Positions 12,229-23,350 of a stretch of DNA of 64,000 nucleotides are shown one piece after another. Position 1 is the stretch's first letter; each line of letters opens with the position of its first letter. The translations under genes were made by a program, and so were the position numbers. The stretch lies in NCBI RefSeq assembly GCF_004296335.1, contig NZ_SGIU01000001.1, positions 783,290 to 847,289 on the forward strand, in the 5' to 3' direction. The DNA comes from Flagellimonas allohymeniacidonis (GTDB taxonomy: Bacteria; Bacteroidota; Bacteroidia; Flavobacteriales; Flavobacteriaceae). The notes beneath the pieces were generated by a model that saw only the letters and a list, made by a program, of their open reading frames with translations, made no database searches and was not told the origin of the DNA.

Positions 12229-12295
12229 GGTTTTATCCGTCGGTTAGGGAAGGTTATCCGTATAAAATGGGGTAAATTGCGGATATAAACGAGTT
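12229..12295. other. Left junction of the cassette array, with an inverted repeat
   Basis: GGTTTTATCCG (12229-12239) is complementary to CGGATATAAAC (12280-12290) with one bulge, and GGTTATCCGTATAAA lies between. This sequence directly precedes the GTT (12293) that opens the first unit. It shares no arms with the R1 or R2 spacers, so it is the natural candidate for the non-cassette attachment side (attI-like position) or a promoter feeding the array. That role is inference. Confidence 0.35.
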
Positions 12296-12309
12296 GGCAT
12301 TAATATAAA

Positions 12310-14202
12310 ATGACTGAAGATTTAACCAAAAGAATAACCCAGTTTTTAGAAATTGACACTAACTACGCAGTCATAATTAGTGGTGATTATGGAATTGGAA
12401 AAACTTTCTATTTTAAAAACAAACTATTTCCTTTAGTTAGAAACATTAATGTTCCAAATTCTGAAAGCGAGGAAAAATATAGACCTATTTTAATTTCCTT
12501 ATTTGGAATAAAAAGTGTCGAAGAAATTCAAAAACAAATCTTTTTAGAATTGTTTCCTCTATTAAAAAACAAAGGAGTTAAAATTGCTTCAGATATTGGC
12601 AAATCTTTATTAAAAGTGTTTTCTGGCGTTGACATAGAACAATACGTTAATGATGCCGACACTTCTACATCAGATATAATAAATTATAACAAATTATTAC
12701 TCTGTTTTGATGACATAGATAGGAAAAGCGATGATTTACAAATCAAAGAATTATTTGGTTTCATTAATAACTTGGTGGAAAACTCAAATACCAAAGTCAT
12801 AATTATCGCAAATGAAGATGTATTAAGAAAAGAAGAATCAAATAATGATGAAGACACATATTCTGTTATAAGAGAAAAAGTTATAGGCATATCGATAAAG
12901 TTCAATACTGATGTAGTTTCAATTTACGGCCAAATAATCAATTCAAAATACAAAGATTCTCTTCCTGTTTATTTTAATTATTTAAAGGATTATAATCAAA
13001 GTATTATTGCAAGAATTGAGCAGAATAACAAAAACATACGAAATCTAGTTTTCTTTTTAGAACACTATAAAATCATTTTCAACTCTTTAGATGAATACTT
13101 GAAACCAGATGATAATTTAAATCCTTTTAGGAAAGAAATCTTTGAATTGATTTTGAATTTCACTTTACCAATTTCTATTGAGTACAAAATGGGTAGTCTT
13201 AAGCCCAAATATTTTAAAGACATTAAAGACTTACACATTGGAGGTTTATTTGACTTATCTGCATTTTTAAGTGATGGACCATCAATGAAAATAAAGTCAA
13301 AAGAAGAAAAAGTTGAAACATACCAAGAGATTTACAAAAGAAAATATCTTGACGACACTGTTCAAAGAAAAAAAGTTTTTTTCGAATCTATATTTAATTA
13401 TATAACTGGTAGTTCTTCGTTTTCTATTGACAAATTAATAGAGGAATTAAAATCAATATTTGTTATAGAAGACAACAAAGTTCCAAAAAGAGAGAAGGTT
13501 TTGAATACCCTTTCATATTGGCAATGTATTGACCTAAATACAAATGAATATAGAAAGCTCACTAATGAAATGCTGAAATTTGTTGACACAGGAGAGTATA
13601 AATTAGACCAATATCCAACGGTTTTCCATTATGCTACTAGATTCAACAATTTACTAAACTACAACCTAGAAAATCTGAAAAAAAGATTCAAAAGAGGAAT
13701 CAAAAAAGGAACTTTTGAATACAAGCCTAGTCTTCATTTTCATTTGCACATAAGTGCGAATACAGAATTCTATGAAGACCTCAAAGAGGTTGCGGAATAT
13801 TGTATTCAAATAAATAAGGAAATCAAAGTAAAATCTGAAAAAGAAGAGGTTGAAAACCTTTTCGAGTTATTTCAAAATAATTTTAAAGAGTTTTTGGAAA
13901 AGGTTAATGAGTCAAATACAGAATTAAGATATAAACCGATTTTTGCCAAATTCAATTTCAATAAGTTTTGGTCTACTTTGAAAAAAGCTAAAAATACTGA
14001 ATTAATAGAATTCGGTTTTGATATGGCGAGACGTTACACTAAATATGTCTACCCTGATTTAAATCCAGAAAAATATTTTCTAGAACAATTAAAAGAAAAA
14101 TTAGAATCGGAAATAGGTAAATCAAGAACAACTAAAATGGATAATATTGCTTATGAATTTTTAGTTTCAAAAATAAATGAATCAATTAATAATTTTGAAT
14201 AA
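12310..14202 (+). CDS. KAP-type P-loop NTPase (unit 1 cargo)
   Basis: 630-residue AT-rich gene. Walker A GDYGIGKT is at residues 25-32 and the Walker B-like L-L-C-F-D-D-I-D-R at about 130-138. The D-D-I-D-R ending and the spacing are those of KAP P-loop NTPases. Beyond about residue 330 the protein is long, helical, Lys/Glu-rich and unrecognised. No transmembrane insertion in the NTPase is evident, unlike animal KAP members, so it is probably cytoplasmic. KAP-like NTPases recur in mobile and phage-defence loci; a defence role here is inference only. The gene starts 17 bp after the opening GTT of its unit and ends 11 bp before the closing AAC. Confidence 0.72.
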   Translation: MTEDLTKRITQFLEIDTNYAVIISGDYGIGKTFYFKNKLFPLVRNINVPNSESEEKYRPILISLFGIKSVEEIQKQIFLELFPLLKNKGVKIASDIGKSLLKVFSGVDIEQYVNDADTSTSDIINYNKLLLCFDDIDRKSDDLQIKELFGFINNLVENSNTKVIIIANEDVLRKEESNNDEDTYSVIREKVIGISIKFNTDVVSIYGQIINSKYKDSLPVYFNYLKDYNQSIIARIEQNNKNIRNLVFFLEHYKIIFNSLDEYLKPDDNLNPFRKEIFELILNFTLPISIEYKMGSLKPKYFKDIKDLHIGGLFDLSAFLSDGPSMKIKSKEEKVETYQEIYKRKYLDDTVQRKKVFFESIFNYITGSSSFSIDKLIEELKSIFVIEDNKVPKREKVLNTLSYWQCIDLNTNEYRKLTNEMLKFVDTGEYKLDQYPTVFHYATRFNNLLNYNLENLKKRFKRGIKKGTFEYKPSLHFHLHISANTEFYEDLKEVAEYCIQINKEIKVKSEKEEVENLFELFQNNFKEFLEKVNESNTELRYKPIFAKFNFNKFWSTLKKAKNTELIEFGFDMARRYTKYVYPDLNPEKYFLEQLKEKLESEIGKSRTTKMDNIAYEFLVSKINESINNFE

Positions 14203-14213
14203 ATACTAATGCC

Positions 14214-14336
14214 AACAATGGCTATAAGTAATTGCTTGTACTCGCCTACTTCTGAAAATCCTCGTGGATTTTCAGTTTGGTGTGTACTTGCGAAGTTAAG
14301 TGCTAACCCACGCAACTACTCATAGCCGAGACCGTT
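14214..14336. repeat. R1 palindromic spacer, copy 1
   Basis: 123 bp from AAC to GTT. Outer arms GGCTATAAGTAATTGC (14220-14235) and GCAACTACTCATAGCC (14312-14327) pair in 14 of 16 positions; both mismatches are A/C on this strand and become G-T wobbles on the complementary strand. An inner perfect hairpin CTGAAAATCC/GGATTTTCAG (14252-14261, 14266-14275) has a 4-base loop. The 3' end CATAGCC-GAGACC-GTT is shared with the other R1 copies. It is about 95% identical to copy 2 and of the same length. Confidence 0.9.
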
Positions 14337-14363
14337 ATGTGGTATTAACAAAAGAACGAACAT

Positions 14364-15113
14364 ATGCCTATATCAAAACCATCAGTACAATCATTATTTC
14401 TTCAAATGCAATTTAACGGAAACAATATTGCTTCTGGCACTGGATTTATTGCAGACACACCTTCTGGTCCAGCACTTATTACTAACAGACATAATGTTAC
14501 TGGAAGAAATAATGTAACTAATGCCACTTTATCACCAAATGGACATACGCCAGACTCTGTTATGATTATGCATAATAGACAAGGACATCTAGGACAATGG
14601 TTAGGCAAAAATGAACCTTTATACGATGAAGATAATAATCCAAAATGGATAGAGCATCCGACTTTAGGGGCAACAGTTGATTTCGTTGCTTTACCTCTAA
14701 CTGAACTTGATGATGTCGAATTATTTCCACACACTCTAGGTGTAGGTGACCCACAGATTCTAGTAGCACCTTCAGATACTGTTAGTGTGGTAGGCTTTCC
14801 TTTCGGACTTGCTGGCGGTGGAGCACTCGCAATATGGGCAACTGGTTTTATGGCAACTGAACCTGAAATAAATCATAATAATCTTCCAACATTTTTAATT
14901 GATTGTAGAGCGCGACCTGGTCAATCAGGTTCAGCTGTTATTGCTCACAGAAATGGTGGAATGGTAGCAATGGAAGATGGAGGAAGTGCCGCTTTTAGTG
15001 GGCCTGTTACGAGATTTCTTGGAATTTATAGCGGTAGAATTAATGCACAATCTGATTTAGGCATTGTATGGAAAGGGTCAGCAATAAAAGAATTAACAGA
15101 TTCAATGAATTAA
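14364..15113 (+). CDS. Cytoplasmic trypsin-like serine protease (unit 2 cargo)
   Basis: 249 residues with a chymotrypsin-fold triad: His43 in T-N-R-H-N-V, Asp106 in T-V-D-F-V-A-L, and Ser188 in G-Q-S-G-S-A. There is no signal peptide or membrane segment, so it should act inside the cell, unlike most bacterial trypsin-like proteases. Such stand-alone or fused protease domains occur as effectors in phage-defence systems; no partner is encoded within this unit. The start is 30 bp after the opening GTT and the stop is 11 bp before the closing AAC. Confidence 0.82.
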   Translation: MPISKPSVQSLFLQMQFNGNNIASGTGFIADTPSGPALITNRHNVTGRNNVTNATLSPNGHTPDSVMIMHNRQGHLGQWLGKNEPLYDEDNNPKWIEHPTLGATVDFVALPLTELDDVELFPHTLGVGDPQILVAPSDTVSVVGFPFGLAGGGALAIWATGFMATEPEINHNNLPTFLIDCRARPGQSGSAVIAHRNGGMVAMEDGGSAAFSGPVTRFLGIYSGRINAQSDLGIVWKGSAIKELTDSMN

Positions 15114-15124
15114 AAACACCACAC

Positions 15125-15247
15125 AACAATGGCTATAAGTAATTACTTGTTCTCGCCTACTTCTGAAAATCCGCGAGGATTTTCAGTTTGGTGTGTACTT
15201 GCAAAGTTAAGTGCTAACCCACGCAACTACTCATAGCCGAAACCGTT
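15125..15247. repeat. R1 palindromic spacer, copy 2
   Basis: 123 bp, differing from copy 1 at 6 positions by eye. Two of the changes lie in the inner hairpin loop region, where the stem is kept. Outer arms are GGCTATAAGTAATTAC and the same 3' arm as copy 1. It separates the protease unit from the small membrane-protein unit. Confidence 0.9.
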
Positions 15248-15278
15248 GTGCGTAATTTGACGACCCCATAAATTATTC

Positions 15279-15740
15279 ATGGCAAAAAAAGACAAATTCA
15301 GAAAAAACCTATCAAAACCAAGAATAAAATCAGACAGTGATGAAATTGGAATAATAGGAATTAGTCTTGCGCTCACGGCTTTATCCGCCAGCTTCATTTT
15401 TGGAGATGAAACAAAACTTTTTGTGAAAGTTATTTGCGTGGCAATTTATATTCTGGGTGGACTTTCTACCAGTTTCCTATACTACACATATTTGACTAGT
15501 AAAATTCCAAAAACAATGAATTTATGGAACTCGAAGGGCGGATTGGGAATCAAAGGTTCTTTTTGGATTTTTATCTACTATGTTAGAATTTTTTTAAAAC
15601 AAATGCTTACGACTAAAGGTAATTCACTAGCAAAAATAAGAGAGTTAGGCTATCTTACTGTACTAGCAATTTTATTCATATTATGGATAACCTTTGGAAT
15701 TGTTATAGCAGATGTATTATTGGAATTAGTGAATAAATAA
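15279..15740 (+). CDS. Small integral membrane protein (unit 3 cargo)
   Basis: 153 residues, not recognised. A basic N-terminus is followed by three hydrophobic segments: about 23-43, 47-72 and 125-148. A hydrophilic, basic stretch lies between the second and third. There is no cleavable signal. The ATG lies 34 bp after the opening GTT of its unit and the stop directly abuts the closing motif (15741-15754). AT-rich like the other array genes. Function unknown. Confidence 0.72.
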   Translation: MAKKDKFRKNLSKPRIKSDSDEIGIIGISLALTALSASFIFGDETKLFVKVICVAIYILGGLSTSFLYYTYLTSKIPKTMNLWNSKGGLGIKGSFWIFIYYVRIFLKQMLTTKGNSLAKIRELGYLTVLAILFILWITFGIVIADVLLELVNK

Positions 15741-15751
15741 AAACTACGTAC

Positions 15752-15841
15752 AACAACAGCTATAATTCACCTGATCGCCGGTCATCGGTGGTCATAGCCT
15801 TTGGCGACGGCTCACAGGCAGGAACCATAGCCTAGACCGTT
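15752..15841. repeat. R1-type palindromic spacer, copy 3 (divergent interior)
   Basis: 90 bp from AAC to GTT. It keeps the R1 frame: 5' AACA-AGCTAT and 3' CATAGCC-TAGACC-GTT. The interior is unrelated to copies 1 and 2: CGCC...GGCG and CCTG...CAGG arms give a shorter stem. Conservation of ends and architecture with a changed interior is the pattern expected of sites recognised by structure. Confidence 0.75.
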
Positions 15842-15864
15842 AGGCTTAATTAAAAAAAGGAATT

Positions 15865-16374
15865 ATGGATCCTATAACTTGGGGGTTTATCGGAACATTA
15901 ATAGGGACAATCGTTGGGGCTTCGGCAAGTATAGTTACAACTAGAATAAATAGTAAGAATGCTATTCGAATTCAAGAAGGAATCGAAAGAAATGCCCGAG
16001 AAGAGCGATTCAGAAAATTCCAGAGGGACAACTTCCTTGAGCTTCAGGAAAAACTATCCGACGGAATGCGATTAATTGCCAAGGCTTTTGTAGTGGATTT
16101 AGAACATTATAAAAATACAAATGATTGGGCTTCTTCAACTTTGAGTTCCGAATTAAACAATGAAATTTCAGATTGCTTTAGGGAAGTGTCAATCCGAACA
16201 GAAAGAATTGATGATGACAAATTAAGAGAGGAAGTTAGACAATTTAGAATAAAAATGACTCAATGTTTGATAGCTAAGTCCTATGAATCTGGTAAAGAAA
16301 GAATGGCTGATTTAACAAAAAGGTTTGATGAAAAAATGCCAAAATTAGGCGCTGCCCTAAGAAAGAATTATTAA
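15865..16374 (+). CDS. Membrane-anchored coiled-coil protein (unit 4 cargo)
   Basis: 169 residues, not recognised. The N-terminal hydrophobic segment (about 5-25) is rich in Gly with G-x-x-x-G spacing (G-F-I-G-T-L-I-G-T-I-V-G) and likely serves as a membrane anchor. The rest is charged, helical and Arg/Glu-rich. The start is 26 bp after its opening GTT; the closing motif AAC-TAAACCT-AAC is at 16378-16390, 3 bp after the stop. Function unknown. Confidence 0.72.
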   Translation: MDPITWGFIGTLIGTIVGASASIVTTRINSKNAIRIQEGIERNAREERFRKFQRDNFLELQEKLSDGMRLIAKAFVVDLEHYKNTNDWASSTLSSELNNEISDCFREVSIRTERIDDDKLREEVRQFRIKMTQCLIAKSYESGKERMADLTKRFDEKMPKLGAALRKNY

Positions 16375-16387
16375 AATAACTAAACCT

Positions 16388-16483
16388 AACAACCCCGCGC
16401 TCCCGCAAGATTGTATCTTGTGGTCCGCGCTATAGGGCTAAAGCCCTTTTTGTATTTTGGTCAGGACCCTTGGCTTAATTGTT
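16388..16483. repeat. R2 palindromic spacer, copy 1
   Basis: 96 bp. Begins AACAACCCCGCG and contains the R2 hairpin CGCAAGAT-TGT-ATCTTGTGG, nested in CGCG/CGCG arms. A terminator-like stem AGGGCT/AGCCCT followed by TTTTTG comes next, then the R2 3' end TTGGCTTAATT-GTT. It takes the place that R1 has after units 1-3, so R1 and R2 are interchangeable spacers. Confidence 0.75.
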
Positions 16484-16499
16484 GCTGTGCAGATAAGAA

Positions 16500-17123
16500 A
16501 TGGTGAGTTCAATTAAATTTTCGATTTTCATTTTTCTGATTTTGGCAAATTTTAGTTGTCAAAATTCGGAGCAGAGAACTTCAAAAAAAGTGGAAAAGGA
16601 TTTCGGTCTTTTCCCAAACGAAAATGATAGCCTTGCGGTAGAGTTGAAATTTGCTGAGTATAATAACTGGAGAGAACTACTTGAACGAACCGAAAGAATT
16701 GTTTGTAATGATAGCCTTCCCAAAATAACCATTGAAAACGATAGTCTAATTAAACGGGTTTATTTCAAAAACCCATGTTGGGAAGAAGTAATTTGTGTTT
16801 TGACCAAACAAAGAAACATTATTCAAATACATAATGACACAATTAGTAAATATGACCAACTATTGTACCCGTTGGATAGTTTGGGTTCTGTTTTGAGGAG
16901 AGATTTTGAGAACAATGGAAAAGTACCATCGTTAAGTGAAACCTCTGAAAAACTAATGTTTGCCATATCTTACGACAATGACTGGATTGAAAGATTACCC
17001 GTGACATTGAAAAGGCTAACCAAGGAATATGAAAAAGTCACAGACAGCATTGTTTTAAAAGTATGGTTGAATGAAAAACTGGAAACTCCTCCACCTCCAC
17101 CTCCACCTGACTCCTTAGAGTAA
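16500..17123 (+). CDS. Lipoprotein with C-terminal polyproline
   Basis: 207 residues, not recognised. The signal M-V-S-S-I-K-F-S-I-F-I-F-L-I-L-A-N-F-S-C gives a lipidated Cys20. Two further Cys pairs suggest a folded periplasmic domain. It ends in seven consecutive prolines before D-S-L-E. The gene opens 17 bp after a GTT at the end of an R2 spacer, but the expected complementary closing block is not found: AACTGCCAAC at 17142-17151 does not match. This unit is therefore decayed or rearranged. Confidence 0.7.
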   Translation: MVSSIKFSIFIFLILANFSCQNSEQRTSKKVEKDFGLFPNENDSLAVELKFAEYNNWRELLERTERIVCNDSLPKITIENDSLIKRVYFKNPCWEEVICVLTKQRNIIQIHNDTISKYDQLLYPLDSLGSVLRRDFENNGKVPSLSETSEKLMFAISYDNDWIERLPVTLKRLTKEYEKVTDSIVLKVWLNEKLETPPPPPPPDSLE

Positions 17124-17301
17124 ATCTTTTGCTCCTCCAATAACTGCCAACGCCCTTTTCAAAAAATTCGTTTACAAGAAGAATAGCGTTTCATTTTTCC
17201 GATTTCCTTGACAGCTTTCCCTGCTCGTCCCCATTACTTCTTAATATTTACTATTTTAGTCGACTATGTCAATATTTATAGACCGCTGGATAGTTAAATA
17301 A

Positions 17302-19548
17302 ATGGAAACTACACCAAAAAAAGGTATTCAGGGATTAATTGAAAATTGGCAAAGTGATTTAATCGCAGCGGTGAGTGTCGCACTCATTGCGTTACCTCTT
17401 TCATTAGGTATTGCTTTGGCAGCAGGAGCACCTGCCATGTCCGGTGTCTTTTCAGCAATCGTTGGTGGTGTGGTCACAACCCTCTATCGGGGGGGTCACA
17501 TATCGGTCAACGGACCTGCCAAAGGAGTTATTGGGGTTATCCTTTTGGGTATTGCATTAATGGACGATGGTTCGGGCCAGGCGTTTAATTATGTATTGGC
17601 AGCAGTGGTGGTTTCGGGCGCAATTCAAATGCTATTGGGGATATTGAAATTGGGTCGATTGGCGGACATTTTTCATTCTTCGGTGATACACGGCATTTTG
17701 GCAGCCATCGGAATTATCATAGTTGCCAAACAGATCCATGTGGCCATGGGCACACATTCTGATAGTCCGAGCATTATACAAAACCTCATCGACGCGGTTG
17801 TACTCTTACCTCAAGCCAATCCTTTTGTGTTGATCATTGCTTTGGCCGGATTGCTTTTACTACTGTTTCATTCCAAAATCAGTTACCGGATATTCCATCT
17901 TTTACCCGCTCCCATGTGGGTCATAGCCCTTTCCATTCCCTTTGTCTACGCCTTCAACTTCTTTGACCAACAAACCCTTTCATTCTTTGGAAAAGCCTAT
18001 GAGGTGGGACCTCATCTGTTGTTGGACATTCCTGATACTATAATGGATTCAGTTATGCACCCCAACTTTGGCAAAATTGATACGCTTGAATTCTGGACCA
18101 CTGTATTTTCCATTTTGATCATAACCAGTATAGAATCCTTGGCCATTGCAAAAGCTGTGGACAAAATTGACCCCTATCAGCGAAAGACGGATTTGAACAA
18201 AGATTTAACGGGTATTGGATTGAGTACCATGGTGGCTGGTTTGATTGGAGGTTTGCCCATCATTGCCGTGATTATTCGAAGTACGGTCAATATCCACAAT
18301 GGTGCGAAAACAAAGTGGTCCAATATGTACCAAGGACTTTTGTTGCTACTTTTTATTGTGGTACTGAGCCCCATAATGAGACAGGTACCGCTATGTGCTT
18401 TTGCTATTTTACTCGTTTATACCGGATTTAAATTGGCATCGCCGGGGGTCTTCAAACAAGCTTACAATCAAGGAACTGAGCAACTCATATTCTTTATGGG
18501 AACGATGGTTTTAACCCTCTATACCAATTTATTAATTGGTTTACTTGGTGGATTATTATTGGCACTGGTCACCCACATGCTATTGGCGAGGCTTTCCATC
18601 CCTCAATTTTTTAAAATGGTGTATAAGTCTCGTACAAAATTGTTGAAACGTGAAGATGGCAGTTTCGATTTAAAAATTAGAGGGATTGCGAATTTCTTGG
18701 GCATTTTAAAAGTTGACAAACTAGTGGCTCAAATCCCTTCTGGGGCAGATGTCAATATTGATTTATCAGAAACAAGATTGGTAGGCATGACCTATATGGA
18801 CTATCTGGTGGAATACTTAAAGATACAAAAGGCTACGGGCGGTGAGGTCTATATAACAGGATTGGATTCACATGTTTCATCATCTACACACAATAGAGCT
18901 TTAAAAATTAGTTTGACCGGTTCTGCCACCAATTTATCACAAAGGCAAAAACGATTACGAAATTTAGCAAGTGAGAAAGGTTATCAATACACAAGTCAAG
19001 TTGATTGGAATACGATTTATCTAAAGAAGTTCCACTTTTTTGAAATAAGACCTATTGAACGCAAATACAATTGTCTCAAAGGAACATTTAAAGATTTGGG
19101 TGTGTCTTGGGAAATTGCGGATGTAATATTTAATGAAGGTCAGGCTTTTACAGCTGAAACGTTCAATACAACGCTAATGGTCTTAAAATTGAATAAAAAA
19201 ATACCCGTTTTCACGATGGAAAAAGAAAGGGTACTAGAAAAATTATTTGACCGGGTGATGGCATTTACGGGCTATAAAGACATTGATTTTGAGATGTATC
19301 CGGATTTTTCTAAAAAATTCCTGCTTATGGGGAACAATGAATCTGAGATTCGGTCATTTTTTACAGATGAAATCATTCGCTTTTTCGAAAATCATCAGAT
19401 TTATCATTTAGAAAGCAATGGTGAGGCACTGGTTATTTTTAATAAAATTAAATTGGCACGTACAGATGAAACCATTGCATTTATAGATTATGCCAAAGAA
19501 TTGGCCACGCTCTTAGATGCAAAAAAAAGCATAACAATTGGGGCTTAA
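17302..19548 (+). CDS. SulP/SLC26-family anion transporter
   Basis: 748 residues. The SulP membrane domain (about 15-430, 10 or more hydrophobic segments) has the family N-P/G-P-A-K-G-V-type motif near residue 71. A STAS-like domain follows at about 455-545. The final 190 residues form a soluble extension with no recognised domain. SulP proteins move sulfate, bicarbonate or other anions; the substrate is not determinable. The gene has a 178-bp upstream region of its own, is longer and less AT-rich than the cassette genes, and may be a resident gene within the region. An R2 element follows its stop. Confidence 0.88.
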   Translation: METTPKKGIQGLIENWQSDLIAAVSVALIALPLSLGIALAAGAPAMSGVFSAIVGGVVTTLYRGGHISVNGPAKGVIGVILLGIALMDDGSGQAFNYVLAAVVVSGAIQMLLGILKLGRLADIFHSSVIHGILAAIGIIIVAKQIHVAMGTHSDSPSIIQNLIDAVVLLPQANPFVLIIALAGLLLLLFHSKISYRIFHLLPAPMWVIALSIPFVYAFNFFDQQTLSFFGKAYEVGPHLLLDIPDTIMDSVMHPNFGKIDTLEFWTTVFSILIITSIESLAIAKAVDKIDPYQRKTDLNKDLTGIGLSTMVAGLIGGLPIIAVIIRSTVNIHNGAKTKWSNMYQGLLLLLFIVVLSPIMRQVPLCAFAILLVYTGFKLASPGVFKQAYNQGTEQLIFFMGTMVLTLYTNLLIGLLGGLLLALVTHMLLARLSIPQFFKMVYKSRTKLLKREDGSFDLKIRGIANFLGILKVDKLVAQIPSGADVNIDLSETRLVGMTYMDYLVEYLKIQKATGGEVYITGLDSHVSSSTHNRALKISLTGSATNLSQRQKRLRNLASEKGYQYTSQVDWNTIYLKKFHFFEIRPIERKYNCLKGTFKDLGVSWEIADVIFNEGQAFTAETFNTTLMVLKLNKKIPVFTMEKERVLEKLFDRVMAFTGYKDIDFEMYPDFSKKFLLMGNNESEIRSFFTDEIIRFFENHQIYHLESNGEALVIFNKIKLARTDETIAFIDYAKELATLLDAKKSITIGA

Positions 19549-19560
19549 GAGGAGTCAATA

Positions 19561-19666
19561 TGCCCCCCCCCGCTCCCTCAAGAAGGCATCTTGTGGCTTA
19601 CGTTAACACTGCTGAAACCCTTTTCGTAACTCGGTAAAGGCCATTTGAACTTTCCTTAGCTTTGTT
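19561..19666. repeat. R2 palindromic spacer, copy 2
   Basis: Follows the SulP stop. A C9 run, CGCTCC, then the hairpin CAAGA-AGGCA-TCTTG (19579-19593), a C-T-G-A-A-A-C-C-C-T-T-T-T segment, and the conserved 3' end CCTTAGCTTT-GTT, after which the hydrolase gene starts. Confidence 0.68.
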
Positions 19667-19687
19667 GCAGCAACCCATGAAATCTAA

Positions 19688-20509
19688 ATGGACCAAATAA
19701 ACTTTAAAAAGAAAACAGGCCTCGTTTTTTTAATCGTACTTCTTTCTATTGGTTTAGCCTATGCGCAAACTCAGAATGAAAATCACAACCCTAATCCCAA
19801 ACCCTCTGAATTATTTCATATACCCTATGTTAGTTCAGGAACATTGAATAGTCCAACACTGTTTTTGGTTCTTCATGGCGATGCGCCCTTTAACAATCCT
19901 TCATATCAATATGGCATCGCCAGACAAATAGCAAATGAGAATAATAATGTTGTTGCCGTAGGGGTTCTAAGACCCGGTTACACGGACAATGAGGGGAACC
20001 GTTCAAAAGGAGAACGGGGCTATACCACGGGAGATAATTATACCAAGGAGGTTTTGGAGTCAATACATAATCTGACTGCCGATTTGAAGAAAAAATACAA
20101 TCCTTCGAAAATAATTTTGGTGGGACATTCGGGCGGAGCCGCCATATCTGCCAACTTAATTGCGCAATATTCAAACACCTATTCCAAGGCGGTACTTGTC
20201 TCCTGCCCTTGTGACCTTCATTTATGGCGAAAGCACATGAAGGGATTACAGCCAGAAGCACGAATTTGGGATATCGAGGTGACAAGCCTTTCTCCCATTG
20301 AAGTGCTCGATAGCATCGATAGTTCAATAGAAATTGTTGTGGTCCATGGAGAGGATGATAAAACCGTACCTCTCAATATTGCTTCAAAATATGTAAAAGC
20401 ATTAAAGGAAAACAACAAGAAAGTCAACTTCGTTATTCTTGAAAACCGAGGTCACGAAATAGCTTTCAACAACAAAATATTTGAAATTATTAAAGCGCTT
20501 GTGGAATAA
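19688..20509 (+). CDS. Exported alpha/beta hydrolase
   Basis: 273 residues. The signal peptide ends near A-Y-A-Q (residue 27). The nucleophile elbow G-H-S-G-G is near residue 145, the acid in H-G-E-D-D near 220, and the catalytic His in N-R-G-H-E near 258. Substrate unknown; the fold is typical of periplasmic esterases or peptidases. It sits alone between two R2 spacers on the same strand, in the style of an array unit, but without a convincing complementary end pair. Confidence 0.8.
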   Translation: MDQINFKKKTGLVFLIVLLSIGLAYAQTQNENHNPNPKPSELFHIPYVSSGTLNSPTLFLVLHGDAPFNNPSYQYGIARQIANENNNVVAVGVLRPGYTDNEGNRSKGERGYTTGDNYTKEVLESIHNLTADLKKKYNPSKIILVGHSGGAAISANLIAQYSNTYSKAVLVSCPCDLHLWRKHMKGLQPEARIWDIEVTSLSPIEVLDSIDSSIEIVVVHGEDDKTVPLNIASKYVKALKENNKKVNFVILENRGHEIAFNNKIFEIIKALVE

Positions 20510-20520
20510 AACTGGTGGTA

Positions 20521-20627
20521 CGACCCCTTGCTATCACAGGATGGCATCTTTTGGTCCACGTTATTGGTGCTGAAGTCCTTTTTGTATCTTGGTAAGGACC
20601 CCAGTAATGCTACGTAGCTGAATTGTT
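20521..20627. repeat. R2 palindromic spacer, copy 3 (degenerate)
   Basis: The hairpin half is degenerate (CACAGGATGGCATCTTTTGG). The conserved block CTGAAGTCCTTTTTGTATCTTGGTAAGGAC (20570-20598) has GTCC/GGAC arms, and the 3' end is GTAGCTGAATT-GTT. An alternative TTG start of the next gene (20623) would overlap this element. Confidence 0.62.
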
Positions 20628-20649
20628 CCTCACAAGAAATCGAAAAAAA

Positions 20650-21543
20650 GTGTACAAAGTTTCAATACTTATAGCCGTTGTGCTGTTTCAAGCCAATTGG
20701 GCCTTGGGTCAACACAAAGCCGTATGGGTAGAAAGATGCCTTACCGAAACTACTCATGAAGACCGCTATGCCTCCTATTCCCCAAATGGGGAATGGATCG
20801 TATTCGAATCGAACCGAGATGGAAACTGGGACATCTATATGATGAATTCGCAAGGCGAGAATGTAAAAAGGCTTACCTACAATGAATCAGAGGATAGAAG
20901 ACCAAGTTGGCATCCTAATGGAGAAAAGGTGTTGTTCGAATCCAACAGAAATGGGAGCAATGAATTATTTACCCTTAACCTAAGAAGTGGGAAAGAAAAA
21001 AAATTAAAGCAAAACACCAAAGATGGGGAGTTTGTGTTTGCGTCCTATTCCCCCAATGGAAAAAGAATAGCGGTCAGCTTGAGGGAATCGGAACAAAAAA
21101 GCAAAATTGTCCTCCTTTCCAAAAAGGGCAAGAGGGTTAAAACAATAATTGAAAATGGGAAGCGGAATTTTTATCCAAGATGGTCTAAAGATGGAAAGGA
21201 AATTGTCTATTTCTCAAGAAAAGACACGGACAACAAGGACGATGAAATTTACGGCATAAATTTAGAGACAGGTGTGGAAGCCAGACTTACCCTTTGGAAA
21301 ACACACAACTTCTGTCCTTCATGGTCCTTTGACAATTCGCAGATAGTTTATGTGACATCCATGGAAGGTTCAAGACCCGAGATTTTTATTATGGATCGGG
21401 ATGGCAACAACAAAACGCAAATAACGCACAACGAAGAAGGGGACACATTACCCAATTGGCATCCTAAAGAAAATAGGATTTTGGTAACGGCCTATAGGAA
21501 TGGGAATTATCAAATTTGTGAATTGGAGTTGTCGGAGAAATGA
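20650..21543 (+). CDS. TolB-like beta-propeller (PD40) exported protein
   Basis: 297 residues from the GTG at 20650, chosen because it gives M-Y-K-V-S-I-L-I-A-V-V-L-F-Q-A-N-W-A-L-G-Q as signal; a TTG 27 bases upstream is possible. At least five blades repeat the PD40 pattern Y-S-P-N-G-x-x-I-x-F-x-S-N-R, with W-S-F-D and W-H-P variants. Such propellers bind partner proteins or carbohydrates in the periplasm. No partner is adjacent, as the gene is alone between R2 spacers. Confidence 0.85.
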   Translation: MYKVSILIAVVLFQANWALGQHKAVWVERCLTETTHEDRYASYSPNGEWIVFESNRDGNWDIYMMNSQGENVKRLTYNESEDRRPSWHPNGEKVLFESNRNGSNELFTLNLRSGKEKKLKQNTKDGEFVFASYSPNGKRIAVSLRESEQKSKIVLLSKKGKRVKTIIENGKRNFYPRWSKDGKEIVYFSRKDTDNKDDEIYGINLETGVEARLTLWKTHNFCPSWSFDNSQIVYVTSMEGSRPEIFIMDRDGNNKTQITHNEEGDTLPNWHPKENRILVTAYRNGNYQICELELSEK

Positions 21544-21546
21544 TAT

Positions 21547-21646
21547 CCCCCCCTACCACAAGATGATCTTGTGGTCCCGCTATAATCACTAAAGTCCTTT
21601 TTGTATCTTGCTAAAGACCTTAAAAACGGTCCTTAGCTTAGTTGTT
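21547..21646. repeat. R2 palindromic spacer, copy 4
   Basis: Contains the perfect hairpin CCACAAGAT-G-ATCTTGTGG (21556-21574). The AAGTCCTTTTTGTATCTTG block follows, then a second stem GACC/GGTC, and the 3' end CCTTAGCTTAGTT-GTT. The final GTT (21644-21646) opens unit 5, showing that an R2 element also ends exactly at a unit boundary. Confidence 0.8.
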
Positions 21647-21676
21647 GGGTAACATTAAAAAAATAATTACGCAATC

Positions 21677-22477
21677 ATGAAAAAAAATGATACGTTAACA
21701 TTATTGGCTGTGGGAGCAATTTGTTGGATATTAAGAGTTGTGACCCATGAAGTAATTGGTCATGGCGGATCAAATCTGTTCTTTGGAGGCAAAGCCATTT
21801 CTGTAAGTACAATGTTTTTCAAAGCAAGTCAACCTGATTTTTCTTTTTTACAGCAAAAAGTATTCATTGCTTCTGGTTCAATAATTAATTTGATATTAGG
21901 ATTCACCTCTTTCTATTTTTTTAAAAAACAAAAAACAAAAAACTCATGGAAAGGATACTTCTTATGGATAACATCAATAATATTTATTTTAAATACAGGA
22001 GGTTACATTGCTTTTAGCCAATTCTTGAGTTCTGGAATGGATTGGTCTGTATTTTTAAAAGGTTTATCACCTTTATGGCTATGGAAAACACTTGAACTTA
22101 TTGTTGGTGTTTCTCTTATTTATGTTGGATTTAAAATTGCTGTTAATTACAAAAGAGTCTTCTTTTTTAAGGGTATTACGAACCGGTATGAGAAAAAAAT
22201 CTTAGTCTTACCCTATATATCTGCAACACTTGTTTCAGTTATAGCAGCTTTAAATATGGTTTCTGACAATTTAGGCCTTTTAGTTTTAGGGGCGTTTGGA
22301 AATAGTTTTTTCTTCCTAAGCCCCATGCTAATTGCAGCTTTCATAAAAGTACCCACAACTTTAAATAAAGAAATTGCAGATAAACCAACATTGACAAGAA
22401 ATTATTGGCTAATTTCCATAGCCTCTTTTCTTACATTACTGTTTATTTTGGTATTATCTAGAGAAATATATTTTTAA
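21677..22477 (+). CDS. Integral membrane protein with HExxxH motif (unit 5 cargo)
   Basis: 266 residues with about six hydrophobic segments. T-H-E-V-I-G-H-G-G near residues 27-35 lies inside or next to the first one. This resembles membrane metalloprotease motifs (HExxH), but with three residues between Glu and His, so catalysis is uncertain. AT-rich. The unit is bracketed by GTT-GGGTAAC-ATT (21644-21656) and AAC-GTTGCCC-AAC (22532-22544), with 6 of 7 complementary. The 54 bp between stop and closing motif is longer than in other units. Confidence 0.7.
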   Translation: MKKNDTLTLLAVGAICWILRVVTHEVIGHGGSNLFFGGKAISVSTMFFKASQPDFSFLQQKVFIASGSIINLILGFTSFYFFKKQKTKNSWKGYFLWITSIIFILNTGGYIAFSQFLSSGMDWSVFLKGLSPLWLWKTLELIVGVSLIYVGFKIAVNYKRVFFFKGITNRYEKKILVLPYISATLVSVIAALNMVSDNLGLLVLGAFGNSFFFLSPMLIAAFIKVPTTLNKEIADKPTLTRNYWLISIASFLTLLFILVLSREIYF

Positions 22478-22541
22478 GTTGACAATTAGTAGTACATACA
22501 AATAGTTATTTAGATAGTGGAGCAGTTTAAAAACGTTGCCC

Positions 22542-22723
22542 AACAAGGCTATAAGTAACCAGCCCGAAAGACCCGGTCTGGCGGGTTGCTAGTTCTCGCT
22601 TACTTCTGAATCCCAATAGCTATCGGGACGCGGATTTTCAACTTGGTGTGTACCTGCCTGCCGGCAGGCAGGCTTGCAAAAGTTAATTACTAAAACACAC
22701 AACTACTCATAGCCCAGACCGTT
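22542..22723. repeat. R1 palindromic spacer, copy 4, enlarged by nested palindromes
   Basis: 182 bp from AAC to GTT. It keeps the R1 outer arms (GGCTATAAGTAA and AACTACTCATAGCC), T-A-C-T-T-C-T-G-A-A and G-G-T-G-T-G-T-A-C stretches, and the 3' end CATAGCC-CAGACC-GTT. Relative to copy 1, three extra palindromes are inserted: an AACCAGCCCG...CGGGTT block, CCCAATAGCTATCGGG, and the 20-bp perfect palindrome CCTGCCTGCCGGCAGGCAGG (22653-22672). Confidence 0.85.
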
Positions 22724-22745
22724 GTAACCAATACAAAAAAGTGAA

Positions 22746-23336
22746 ATGAAAAAAACAATTTTGAACTGCATAATTCTTTTACTTCTGTTCTCAAGTTGTA
22801 ATAGTCAAACTAAATCAAGTCCGGAAACTCTTAAAATAGAAGAATTTAATTGGACTGTAAATATTCCTGAAAATTTTGAACCAATAAATCAAGCAGTATG
22901 GAATAAAACTTTAAAAAAAGGAATAAATGCGATTGAAAACACTTTTGAAGAAGAAGTAGATAATCAAGCAACAACTATTTTCACATATAAAAATGGGCAG
23001 TTTAATAACTTTGGAGCAAATTGGCAACCCTTTGATATTGAAATTGACGGGGATTACATGGAAACATATTCTGAAGTAAATGAGATGATATATCAAACTT
23101 TTGAGACACAAATGCCTGATGCAAAACTTGACTCTATATCGTCAACTCAAAAAGTAAGCGGATTGGAATTCCAAAGGTTTGATATTTCAATAGATTTCCC
23201 TAATGGCATAAAAATGAAAACCATTGGTTTTAGTCGATTATTTGATAAAAAAGAATTCACAATGAATATTACCTCTGTTGATGAAATAATTGGACAAAAA
23301 ATGTTAGACGCATTTCTAAACTCCAAATTTGAATAA
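22746..23336 (+). CDS. Small lipoprotein (unit 6 cargo)
   Basis: 196 residues, not recognised. The signal M-K-K-T-I-L-N-C-I-I-L-L-L-L-F-S-S-C gives lipidated Cys18. The remainder alternates beta-like hydrophobic stretches and looks like a compact periplasmic domain. Unit ends GTT-GTAACCA-ATA (22721-22733) and TAC-TGGTTAC-AAT (23338-23350) are complementary in 7 of 7 block positions, although the closing AAC has become AAT. AT-rich. Function unknown. Confidence 0.72.
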   Translation: MKKTILNCIILLLLFSSCNSQTKSSPETLKIEEFNWTVNIPENFEPINQAVWNKTLKKGINAIENTFEEEVDNQATTIFTYKNGQFNNFGANWQPFDIEIDGDYMETYSEVNEMIYQTFETQMPDAKLDSISSTQKVSGLEFQRFDISIDFPNGIKMKTIGFSRLFDKKEFTMNITSVDEIIGQKMLDAFLNSKFE

Positions 23337-23350
23337 ATACTGGTTACAAT

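Follow-up and report, generated by a model that had tools for sequence, protein, structure and literature searches.

The genome of the flavobacterium Flagellimonas allohymeniacidonis carries, within a stretch of 64,000 nucleotides referred to below as the window (contig NZ_SGIU01000001.1, positions 783,290 to 847,289), six accessory genes, each enclosed by a pair of complementary 7-base tags, with hairpin elements between units and an attI-like site in front of the first. An initial annotation, made from the letters alone, had recognised the tagged units and proposed that they may be the array of a non-classical chromosomal integron or an undescribed cassette system. Here we report a comparative analysis of this locus, in which that proposal gained support from the variation of whole units and from recombinase genes at the ends of such arrays elsewhere. 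The window very probably contains an orphaned array belonging to an integron-like system of the Bacteroidota, associated with a recombinase other than IntI, in which the paired tags of a cassette would meet only in the free circle.

Tagged units and hairpin sites of the window

All six units lie on the forward strand, at the positions originally given for them. Cassette 1 (12293-14216, gene 12310-14202) opens with GTT-GGCATTA-A and closes with C-TAATGCC-AAC, its tags matching at 7/7 places. It is followed by cassettes 2 (14334-15127, gene 14364-15113), 3 (15245-15754, gene 15279-15740), 4 (15839-16390, gene 15865-16374) and 5 (21644-22544, gene 21677-22477), each with 6/7 matches, and by cassette 6 (22721-23350, gene 22746-23336), again with 7/7, which closes on AAT. 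The complementarity of the end blocks was reproduced in every unit, and the correct assignment of openings to closings, with 38 of 42 matches, is the unique optimum among all 720 pairings of the window tags (mean 17.8). Blocks of neighbouring units do not match, as had been noted (2.42 of 7 versus 2.55 ± 0.16 after shuffling, over 81 neighbour pairs); the genes are indeed fitted tightly, with start codons 17-34 bases after GTT; and A at place 11 faces C in 6/6 units. The further suggestion that most of the remaining mismatches follow a G-T rule holds for the four in the window (two per strand) but not for the general cassette set, where 28 mismatches of six-of-seven cassettes include nine of the A.C, C.A, G.T or T.G kinds and 12 of A.A. 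A blind scan of the 64 kb at 6/7 or better returned five of the six units and no others on the forward strand, and one match on the reverse strand; unit 6, closing on AAT, is skipped by a pattern that requires AAC. The window contains no tyrosine recombinase, as previously stated: the whole source genome has seven PF00589 matches (E ≤ 0.001), none of them inside it.

Beyond what the initial annotation described, the window holds four hairpin elements, the attI-like site before unit 1 and an untagged stretch between units 4 and 5. The inter-unit elements, all read on the forward strand, start with AAC, end with GTT and have the common ends GGCTATAA...TCATAGCC. Element 1 (14214-14336) and the short, 90-bp element 3 (15752-15841, E 2.4e-6) match a covariance model, R1, of whose own set both are members. 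Element 2 (15125-15247), likewise matched by R1, has a 96.7% identical copy on the plasmid pPP2 of Persicobacter psychrovividus, and element 5 (22542-22723) is 182 bp long. In elements 1 and 2 the bottom strand is predicted to fold more stably than the top. The hairpin position of cassette 4 is occupied by a different repeat, and cassette 6 is followed by about 12 hairpin-like bases and then by another repeat.

Pairing of AAC with GTT and of the inner boxes is present in 96% of stem cells across 23 sequences, compared with 17-40% in slid controls; two-sided changes occur in nine stem cells, which no shuffle attains, and the covariation score is likewise above the shuffles. The underlying two-helix structure was set by hand on 23 of 32 rows, as RNAalifold returned no structure for the mixed element alignment; the nine rows excluded were eight with a right spacer other than 6 nt or a misaligned GTT, and the long element 5. 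Further element types keep this layout and differ in stem sequence (e.g., GTGTAT/ATACAC and GTATAA/TTATAC), their L-box stems varying across types yet remaining paired, and 8/9 Rufibacter elements are 58-60 bases long. Model R1 finds the element in 18/18 genomes examined, which were selected from 36 genomes of the genus for their low contig numbers. The stretch of cassettes 2-4 has DNA matches in 57/71 genus genomes, on and just beside hairpin 2 among the rows listed; this comparison scored four candidates per genome, and relatives of the cassette 2-4 genes may still exist. The same type of site also occurs in Winogradskyella (L136). Rfam at gathering scores gave no match in the window, and phages gave no match to the hairpin site. 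Two lone R1 matches lie in the source genome outside both of its arrays (C1:217282-217405 and C2:1060774-1060899).

The initial annotation was right that the tags are real, but wrong to regard them as an addition outside an ordinary site. The inter-unit hairpin, absent from its description, is the principal component of the site; the tag is best read as an attC R box in extended form (GTT, seven bases, the A.C place and three more). In the array, the previous cassette's closing tag stands on one side of the hairpin and the next cassette's opening tag on the other, and a cassette's own tags oppose one another across the hairpin only in the circle. Mean folding energies predicted with DNA parameters are -30.7 kcal/mol for the bottom strand of the circle, -26.4 for its top strand, -23.7 for the bottom strand of the array and -21.0 for its top strand. 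The circle is the more stable in 79/81 elements, a result that follows partly from the selection of matched tags, and the bottom strand in 80/81, which follows partly from requiring A.C. The constant A.C at place 11 becomes a G.T wobble on the bottom strand, and the bottom strand should therefore fold better.

Tags and moving cassettes in other genomes

The tag rule was applied blind, as GTT-N7-AT ... AC-N7'-AAC with a spacing of 250-4500 bases, to the window and 41 further loci (736,804 bases) selected for a hairpin or a TIGR02249 match. Exact 7/7 pairs number 77, a few of them with a common end, compared with 0, 2, 1 and 0 for reversed, complemented, identical and rotated controls; at 6/7 or better there are 120 pairs versus 22, 18, 21 and 24. 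Tagged pairs around genes, which the initial annotation had suggested looking for in relatives, are found well beyond the window, and far above chance. Tags score 6.77/7 with their own partners, a figure that is no test as acceptance of a cassette required 6 or 7 matches, and the longest frame lies on the tag strand in 160/175 cassettes. One gene found in three genomes has the tag GTAAGTA in two loci (L067 and L108) and GTGGTTA in a third (L119), where the closing tag is altered to fit and place 14 also changes from C-G to T-A. This one homologous cassette suggests that the pairing of tags may be kept by selection.

Movement of cassettes as units is evident from sequence comparison of repeats on pPP2 (404 kb), where a superintegron-like array (loci L201, L214 and L215; record positions 302000-403500) comprises about 100 kb of mostly hypothetical genes, almost all on one strand. 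The array strand has 62 exact tag pairs (controls 0, 0, 1), the opposite strand 5 (controls 0, 1, 4) and the adjoining 42 kb one (control 0). In total, 60 non-overlapping cassettes with 32 distinct tags cover 45 kb of the 101.5 kb. Among repeat pairs that align in register over at least 70% (29 pairs, mutually non-independent), 23/29 start no more than 18 bases from GTT, 28/29 end 117-124 or 186-187 bases past AAC, which is the position of the next GTT there, and 22/29 have a break near GTT at either end; the repeated segments take in the hairpin as far as the following GTT. The whole-unit variation that the initial annotation had proposed to seek by comparing strains is borne out by these pairs, and one gene present in two genomes of the genus is a further case of a cassette varying as a unit. 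The recombinase family discussed below is not annotated in pPP2 positions 1-50000 and 210001-404592, and seven Persicobacter plasmid records carry a homolog of it.

A linked recombinase and the array heads

A tyrosine recombinase near the ends of such arrays, also anticipated by the initial annotation, was found in other genomes, where TIGR02249 matches in relatives adjoin arrays. Across 18 contiguous genomes, a distinct recombinase group (E < 1e-120) is represented at nine loci, alongside matches at the level of XerC and XerD; six of the nine have an R1 element within 7 kb among the matches listed, and 8/8 examined (all of the nine but G021:C13) have exact tagged cassettes beside the gene. 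A wider set of 103 loci was composed of the best 80 of at least 590 found by protein homology and 23 from relatives. A 7/7 tag pair opens within 450 bp of the recombinase gene in 42/103 of these, compared with 7/103 for reversed tags. Place 11, on which this test sets no condition, is A.C in 34/42, and places 12, 13 and 14 are paired in 34, 35 and 28 of 42. The 34 loci with A.C comprise 23 of the 80 chosen by homology and 11 of the 23 from relatives; 20 of the former bear Bacteroidota names, the other three being L127 (no phylum) and metagenome-assembled genomes of a spirochaete (Spirochaetota, L142) and a proteobacterium (L181). The best 80 include eight IntI-clade rows, and none of these passes. 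In 26/34 linked loci the first cassette begins 46-172 bp from the recombinase, measured to the match or frame end. Short forms of the gene, together with L057, L101, L150 and L153, are divergent from the array, and the other long-form genes lie upstream of and codirectional with it.

The first units of L121 (2710-4745), L142 (10926-11686) and L181 (1187-2069) have paired ends of up to 20 bases, with A.C at place 11 as the sole mismatch. As a yardstick, four IntI-clade cassette ends judged convincing (two in L186, both carrying one tag, and two in L187) match over 8, 8, 8 and 10 bases; this very small sample comes from a looser search with few convincing pairs, a first, stricter search for IntI-type cassettes having given none. 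The own tags of classical cassettes reportedly match over a 7-base core, as Stokes et al. are said to have described in 1997.

An alignment of 18 proteins shows no variation at the R-K-H-R-H residues and almost none at the catalytic tyrosine. The family profile places 21 residues opposite 64 of IntI4 (residues 180-243), that is, the additional domain of IntI is not present, and the spacing from KG.KDR to HxLRH is 64-66 where measured, compared with 107 in IntI1, L196 and L197, the only members of the IntI clade measured to have that spacing in a motif search that was silent for many rows. An unrooted tree groups IntI1 with eight rows in a 100/100 clade, from which all Bacteroidota array recombinases are excluded. 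The tree holds 98/106 rows, without L139, L168, L175 and L176 (<220 aa) and without L154, L155, L159 and L190, of which L159 and L190 do have tagged first cassettes. The label "tagged" needs 19 changes on it, compared with 32.3 in shuffles, some of the labels surely being chance tag matches; with that many changes, the tree does not establish a single origin of the linkage between recombinase and cassettes. No TIGR02249 match exceeds the cut-off in 59 genomes. NCBIfam NF040815 is the best or second-best name for the eight proteins scanned, of which seven fall below its cut-off of 220 bits (190-214) and only L109 reaches it (236). An AlphaFold model of the Winogradskyella protein (L136; predicted local distance difference test score, pLDDT, 85.8; predicted template modelling score, pTM, 0.60) has its best fold matches in XerA and then in IntI4 (2a3v). 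Long forms have about 80-100 additional residues at the N terminus, a domain in which one W is nearly invariant, and Pfam gave no match over cut-off in the N-terminal part of four of them. This domain (e.g., L057 15469-15735) shows a "KWS....W"-like motif and has the position of an arm-binding domain. A recombinase of Acinetobacter plasmids (H55-H68, at least 13 rows; called TnpF in a single uncultured record) shares 53% identity with the array recombinase over its C-terminal 227 residues, and the family may thus be spread beyond the Bacteroidota. On a mobilizable plasmid of Flagellimonas marinaquae (NZ_CP092416.1, locus L199), a recombinase of the family lies near erm(F) and a type A hairpin adjoins a dihydrofolate-reductase-family gene; a scan of this region at 6/7 found no tagged unit.

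The attI-like site of the window (12254-12292, forward strand, left end placed by eye) lies immediately 5' of the first GTT, at 12293, and reads GGGTAAATTGCGGATATAAACGA. With up to three mismatches allowed, a 26-base pattern made of the site and GTT occurs twice in the source genome, once in the window and once where the second array begins (C2:1307140-1307165), and again beside the recombinase gene of a relative (G004); the backward pattern has no match in 39 genomes. The site aligns with L061 over 33 bp (blastn, 90.9%, E 9e-9), and the heads of two G004 arrays, of which one adjoins the recombinase gene, carry close variants. By eye, several codirectional loci have the motif GTATATAAACAA or GTTTATCCAATT immediately before the first GTT and six bases past an L-like box. 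Two attI-like sites, with no recombinase shown adjoining, are L222 (G004:C2:759645), which is followed by a tagged cassette, and L219 (G021:C8:201755), with no tagged cassette within the locus. A tblastn search for a recombinase remnant ahead of the window array returned chance-level pieces only. By sequence, relatives have an attI-like site beside a recombinase at the array head, and the source genome has the site without the gene. With such a head present, and with only chance-level pieces and XerC- and XerD-level matches in this genome, the window looks like an integron head without its recombinase. Both arrays of the source genome look orphaned, their recombinase apparently having been lost; XerC/D, or a recombinase copy visiting the cell, could still act on the window array.

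Proposed mechanism, alternatives and related systems

In the mechanism that we propose, a cassette would consist of one gene and its hairpin site, from the TT of the opening GTT to the G of the following GTT. Once it is a free circle, its own tags would close a 14-place stem (13 pairs and the A.C at place 11), followed inward by an asymmetric spacer (3 nt versus 5-6) and the L-box stem. A recombinase resembling XerA and IntI, without the IntI additional domain, would bind this folded hairpin and link it, at GTT, with the attI-like site that lies next to the recombinase gene, incoming cassettes being added at the array head. After insertion the site would be flanked by the tags of two different cassettes, and as the outer stem is thereby lost, retention would be favoured over excision. 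We infer the choice of strand, the polarity, the reaction and the valve effect, as well as recombination itself, from sequence and predicted folds. The system works like an integron, and the two defining tests of IntI-family membership, the additional domain and a place in the IntI clade, both gave negative results. We lean slightly towards the broader view that the Bacteroidota have a second class of integron, with its own branch among XerA- and IntI-like recombinases, folded single-stranded sites recognised without a supposedly necessary domain, a double-length R box with a G.T wobble, and tags that act as a one-way valve.

Several observations weigh against an orphan integron-like array as the explanation of the window. 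No recombination has been observed, and the source genome has no such recombinase, only the matches at XerC and XerD level. With A.C required, only 23/80 and 11/23 loci pass the strict first-cassette test, many of those that do not pass being short contigs or from other phyla; L151 has 3.7 kb past the gene and no tagged unit, the nearest tagged unit in L119, L120 and L148 lies 2.0-3.2 kb off, and the 34 passing loci include weak cases such as L129, L153 and L159. Stem pairs with double changes number two, which is not above shuffles (242/500 attain it); window element 3 is the lone case of 81 without a more stable bottom strand; and 24/81 predicted stems contain one or two single-base bulges, so that the absence of extrahelical bases is not absolute. 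The genes flanking the window array, looked up with a view to finding an empty site, are poorly conserved, with matches in 7/40 and 5/40 genomes (source included) and relatives 29-38% identical, except for G028 (70%), whose region has just one gene in common with that of the window.

Drift of the integrase and sites of an ordinary IntI integron is an unlikely origin of these arrays. It would explain the AAC...GTT layout, the predicted bottom-strand preference, cassettes in one orientation and an attI beside the recombinase gene, all of them integron traits, as well as the TIGR02249 matches and the place of IntI4 behind XerA among the best folds; yet those matches stay below the cut-off, the profile and motif spacing lack the room for the additional domain, the IntI clade contains no Bacteroidota array recombinase and 57/81 predicted stems are free of single-base bulges. 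Hardly different, and by a shade the less probable, is the notion that the host XerC and XerD move the cassettes, as in integrative mobile elements exploiting Xer recombination (IMEX), the linked recombinase being incidental. Array genomes other than that of the window, too, include ones with XerC- and XerD-level matches only, and the 11-bp boxes with a 6-nt spacer resemble dif; against this stand the extra recombinase next to the first cassette at every examined locus of its group and the attI-like site next to that recombinase in G004.

We consider it very improbable that each gene belongs to its own family of small transposons, with the tags as terminal inverted repeats. The ends are inverted repeats, as long as 20 bases with one mismatch in L121, L142 and L181, but private tags are combined with a common hairpin, frames follow the tag strand, units are consecutive with hairpins between them, and the repeats on pPP2 extend through the hairpin to the next GTT. 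Chance matches or intergenic terminator repeats, which the position of the hairpins after stop codons might bring to mind, retain next to no probability, having been refuted by the controls: 77 exact pairs compared with 0-2 overall, 62 compared with 0, 0 and 1 on pPP2, and one pairing in which both tags changed together.

An integron-like array, as preferred here, shares with sedentary chromosomal integrons and with clusters of attC sites lacking integron-integrases (CALIN) its codirectional single-gene cassettes, AAC...GTT hairpin sites, GTT boundary, predicted bottom-strand preference, an array that begins at an attI next to the recombinase, occurrence of integrase-less arrays and dozens of cassettes. 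Unlike in IntI integrons, no additional (I2) domain is present in the recombinase, which falls outside the IntI clade; in place of the shared GTTRRRY there is a 14-place R box, of which seven bases are private and one place is a fixed A.C (bottom-strand G.T); and most predicted stems are without extrahelical bases. With XerCD/dif, XerA and IMEX such as CTXphi it has the recombinase superfamily in common (closest solved relatives 4a8e and 5hxy), but those systems differ in that here the recombinase has its own gene, its own attI and cassette arrays. For CTXphi, a folded single-strand site without extrahelical bases has been described (PMC4792948). CALIN are defined as at least two attC sites less than 4 kb apart without an integrase (PMC9668308); window elements 1-3 are so spaced in a recombinase-less genome, and are called attC-like here. 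In the text cited of PMC8138268, a group of integron-like recombinases is mentioned in which the insertion is "not fully conserved", so that such proteins appear to have been seen before, without arrays in that text. The passages cited from the description of IntegronFinder 2.0 name one complete integron in the Bacteroidetes proper, in Salinibacter ruber M1, and its IntI profile probably misses the recombinase family described here. Among the open-access PubMed Central titles and abstract openings listed by literature searches (preprints excluded), none describes the system.

Should such a system exist in parallel throughout a phylum, integrons would be far more common than present counts suggest, and a natural system largely without the I2 domain and extrahelical bases would test the role assigned to both (in the parts cited of PMC4792948). 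The near-identical site in Persicobacter (Cytophagales) and the like site in Winogradskyella point to wide traffic, and plasmids also carry the hairpin site and the recombinase.

Between units 4 and 5, positions 16500-21543 of the window contain four untagged genes, namely one of no recognised kind, a sulfate permease family member, an alpha/beta hydrolase and a PD40 beta-propeller. A second repeat (CCCGCTCCCGCAAGATTGTATCTTGTGG..., at 16391-16486, 19567-, 20525-, 21549-21645, 23362-, 25386- and 25971-) lies between untagged genes and also sits in or at the sites of cassettes 4 and 6. Within the source genome it occurs only in this stretch of the window, with weak pieces in 2/12 relatives, and it is perhaps an insertion that targets attC-like hairpins.

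The cargo includes candidate anti-phage genes, which make up two of the six window genes and two of ten others picked from 33 listed. The gene of cassette 1 is the PADLOC candidate PDC-S49 (E 5e-62) and that of cassette 2 has a Trypsin_2 match and corresponds to PADLOC PDC-S45 (E 1e-17), while the gene of cassette 3 has no family match at E 0.001 and none in PADLOC. Elsewhere, cassette genes at L060 11304-12245 and L112 8934-9815 resemble TIR-type and LmuA-type defence proteins.

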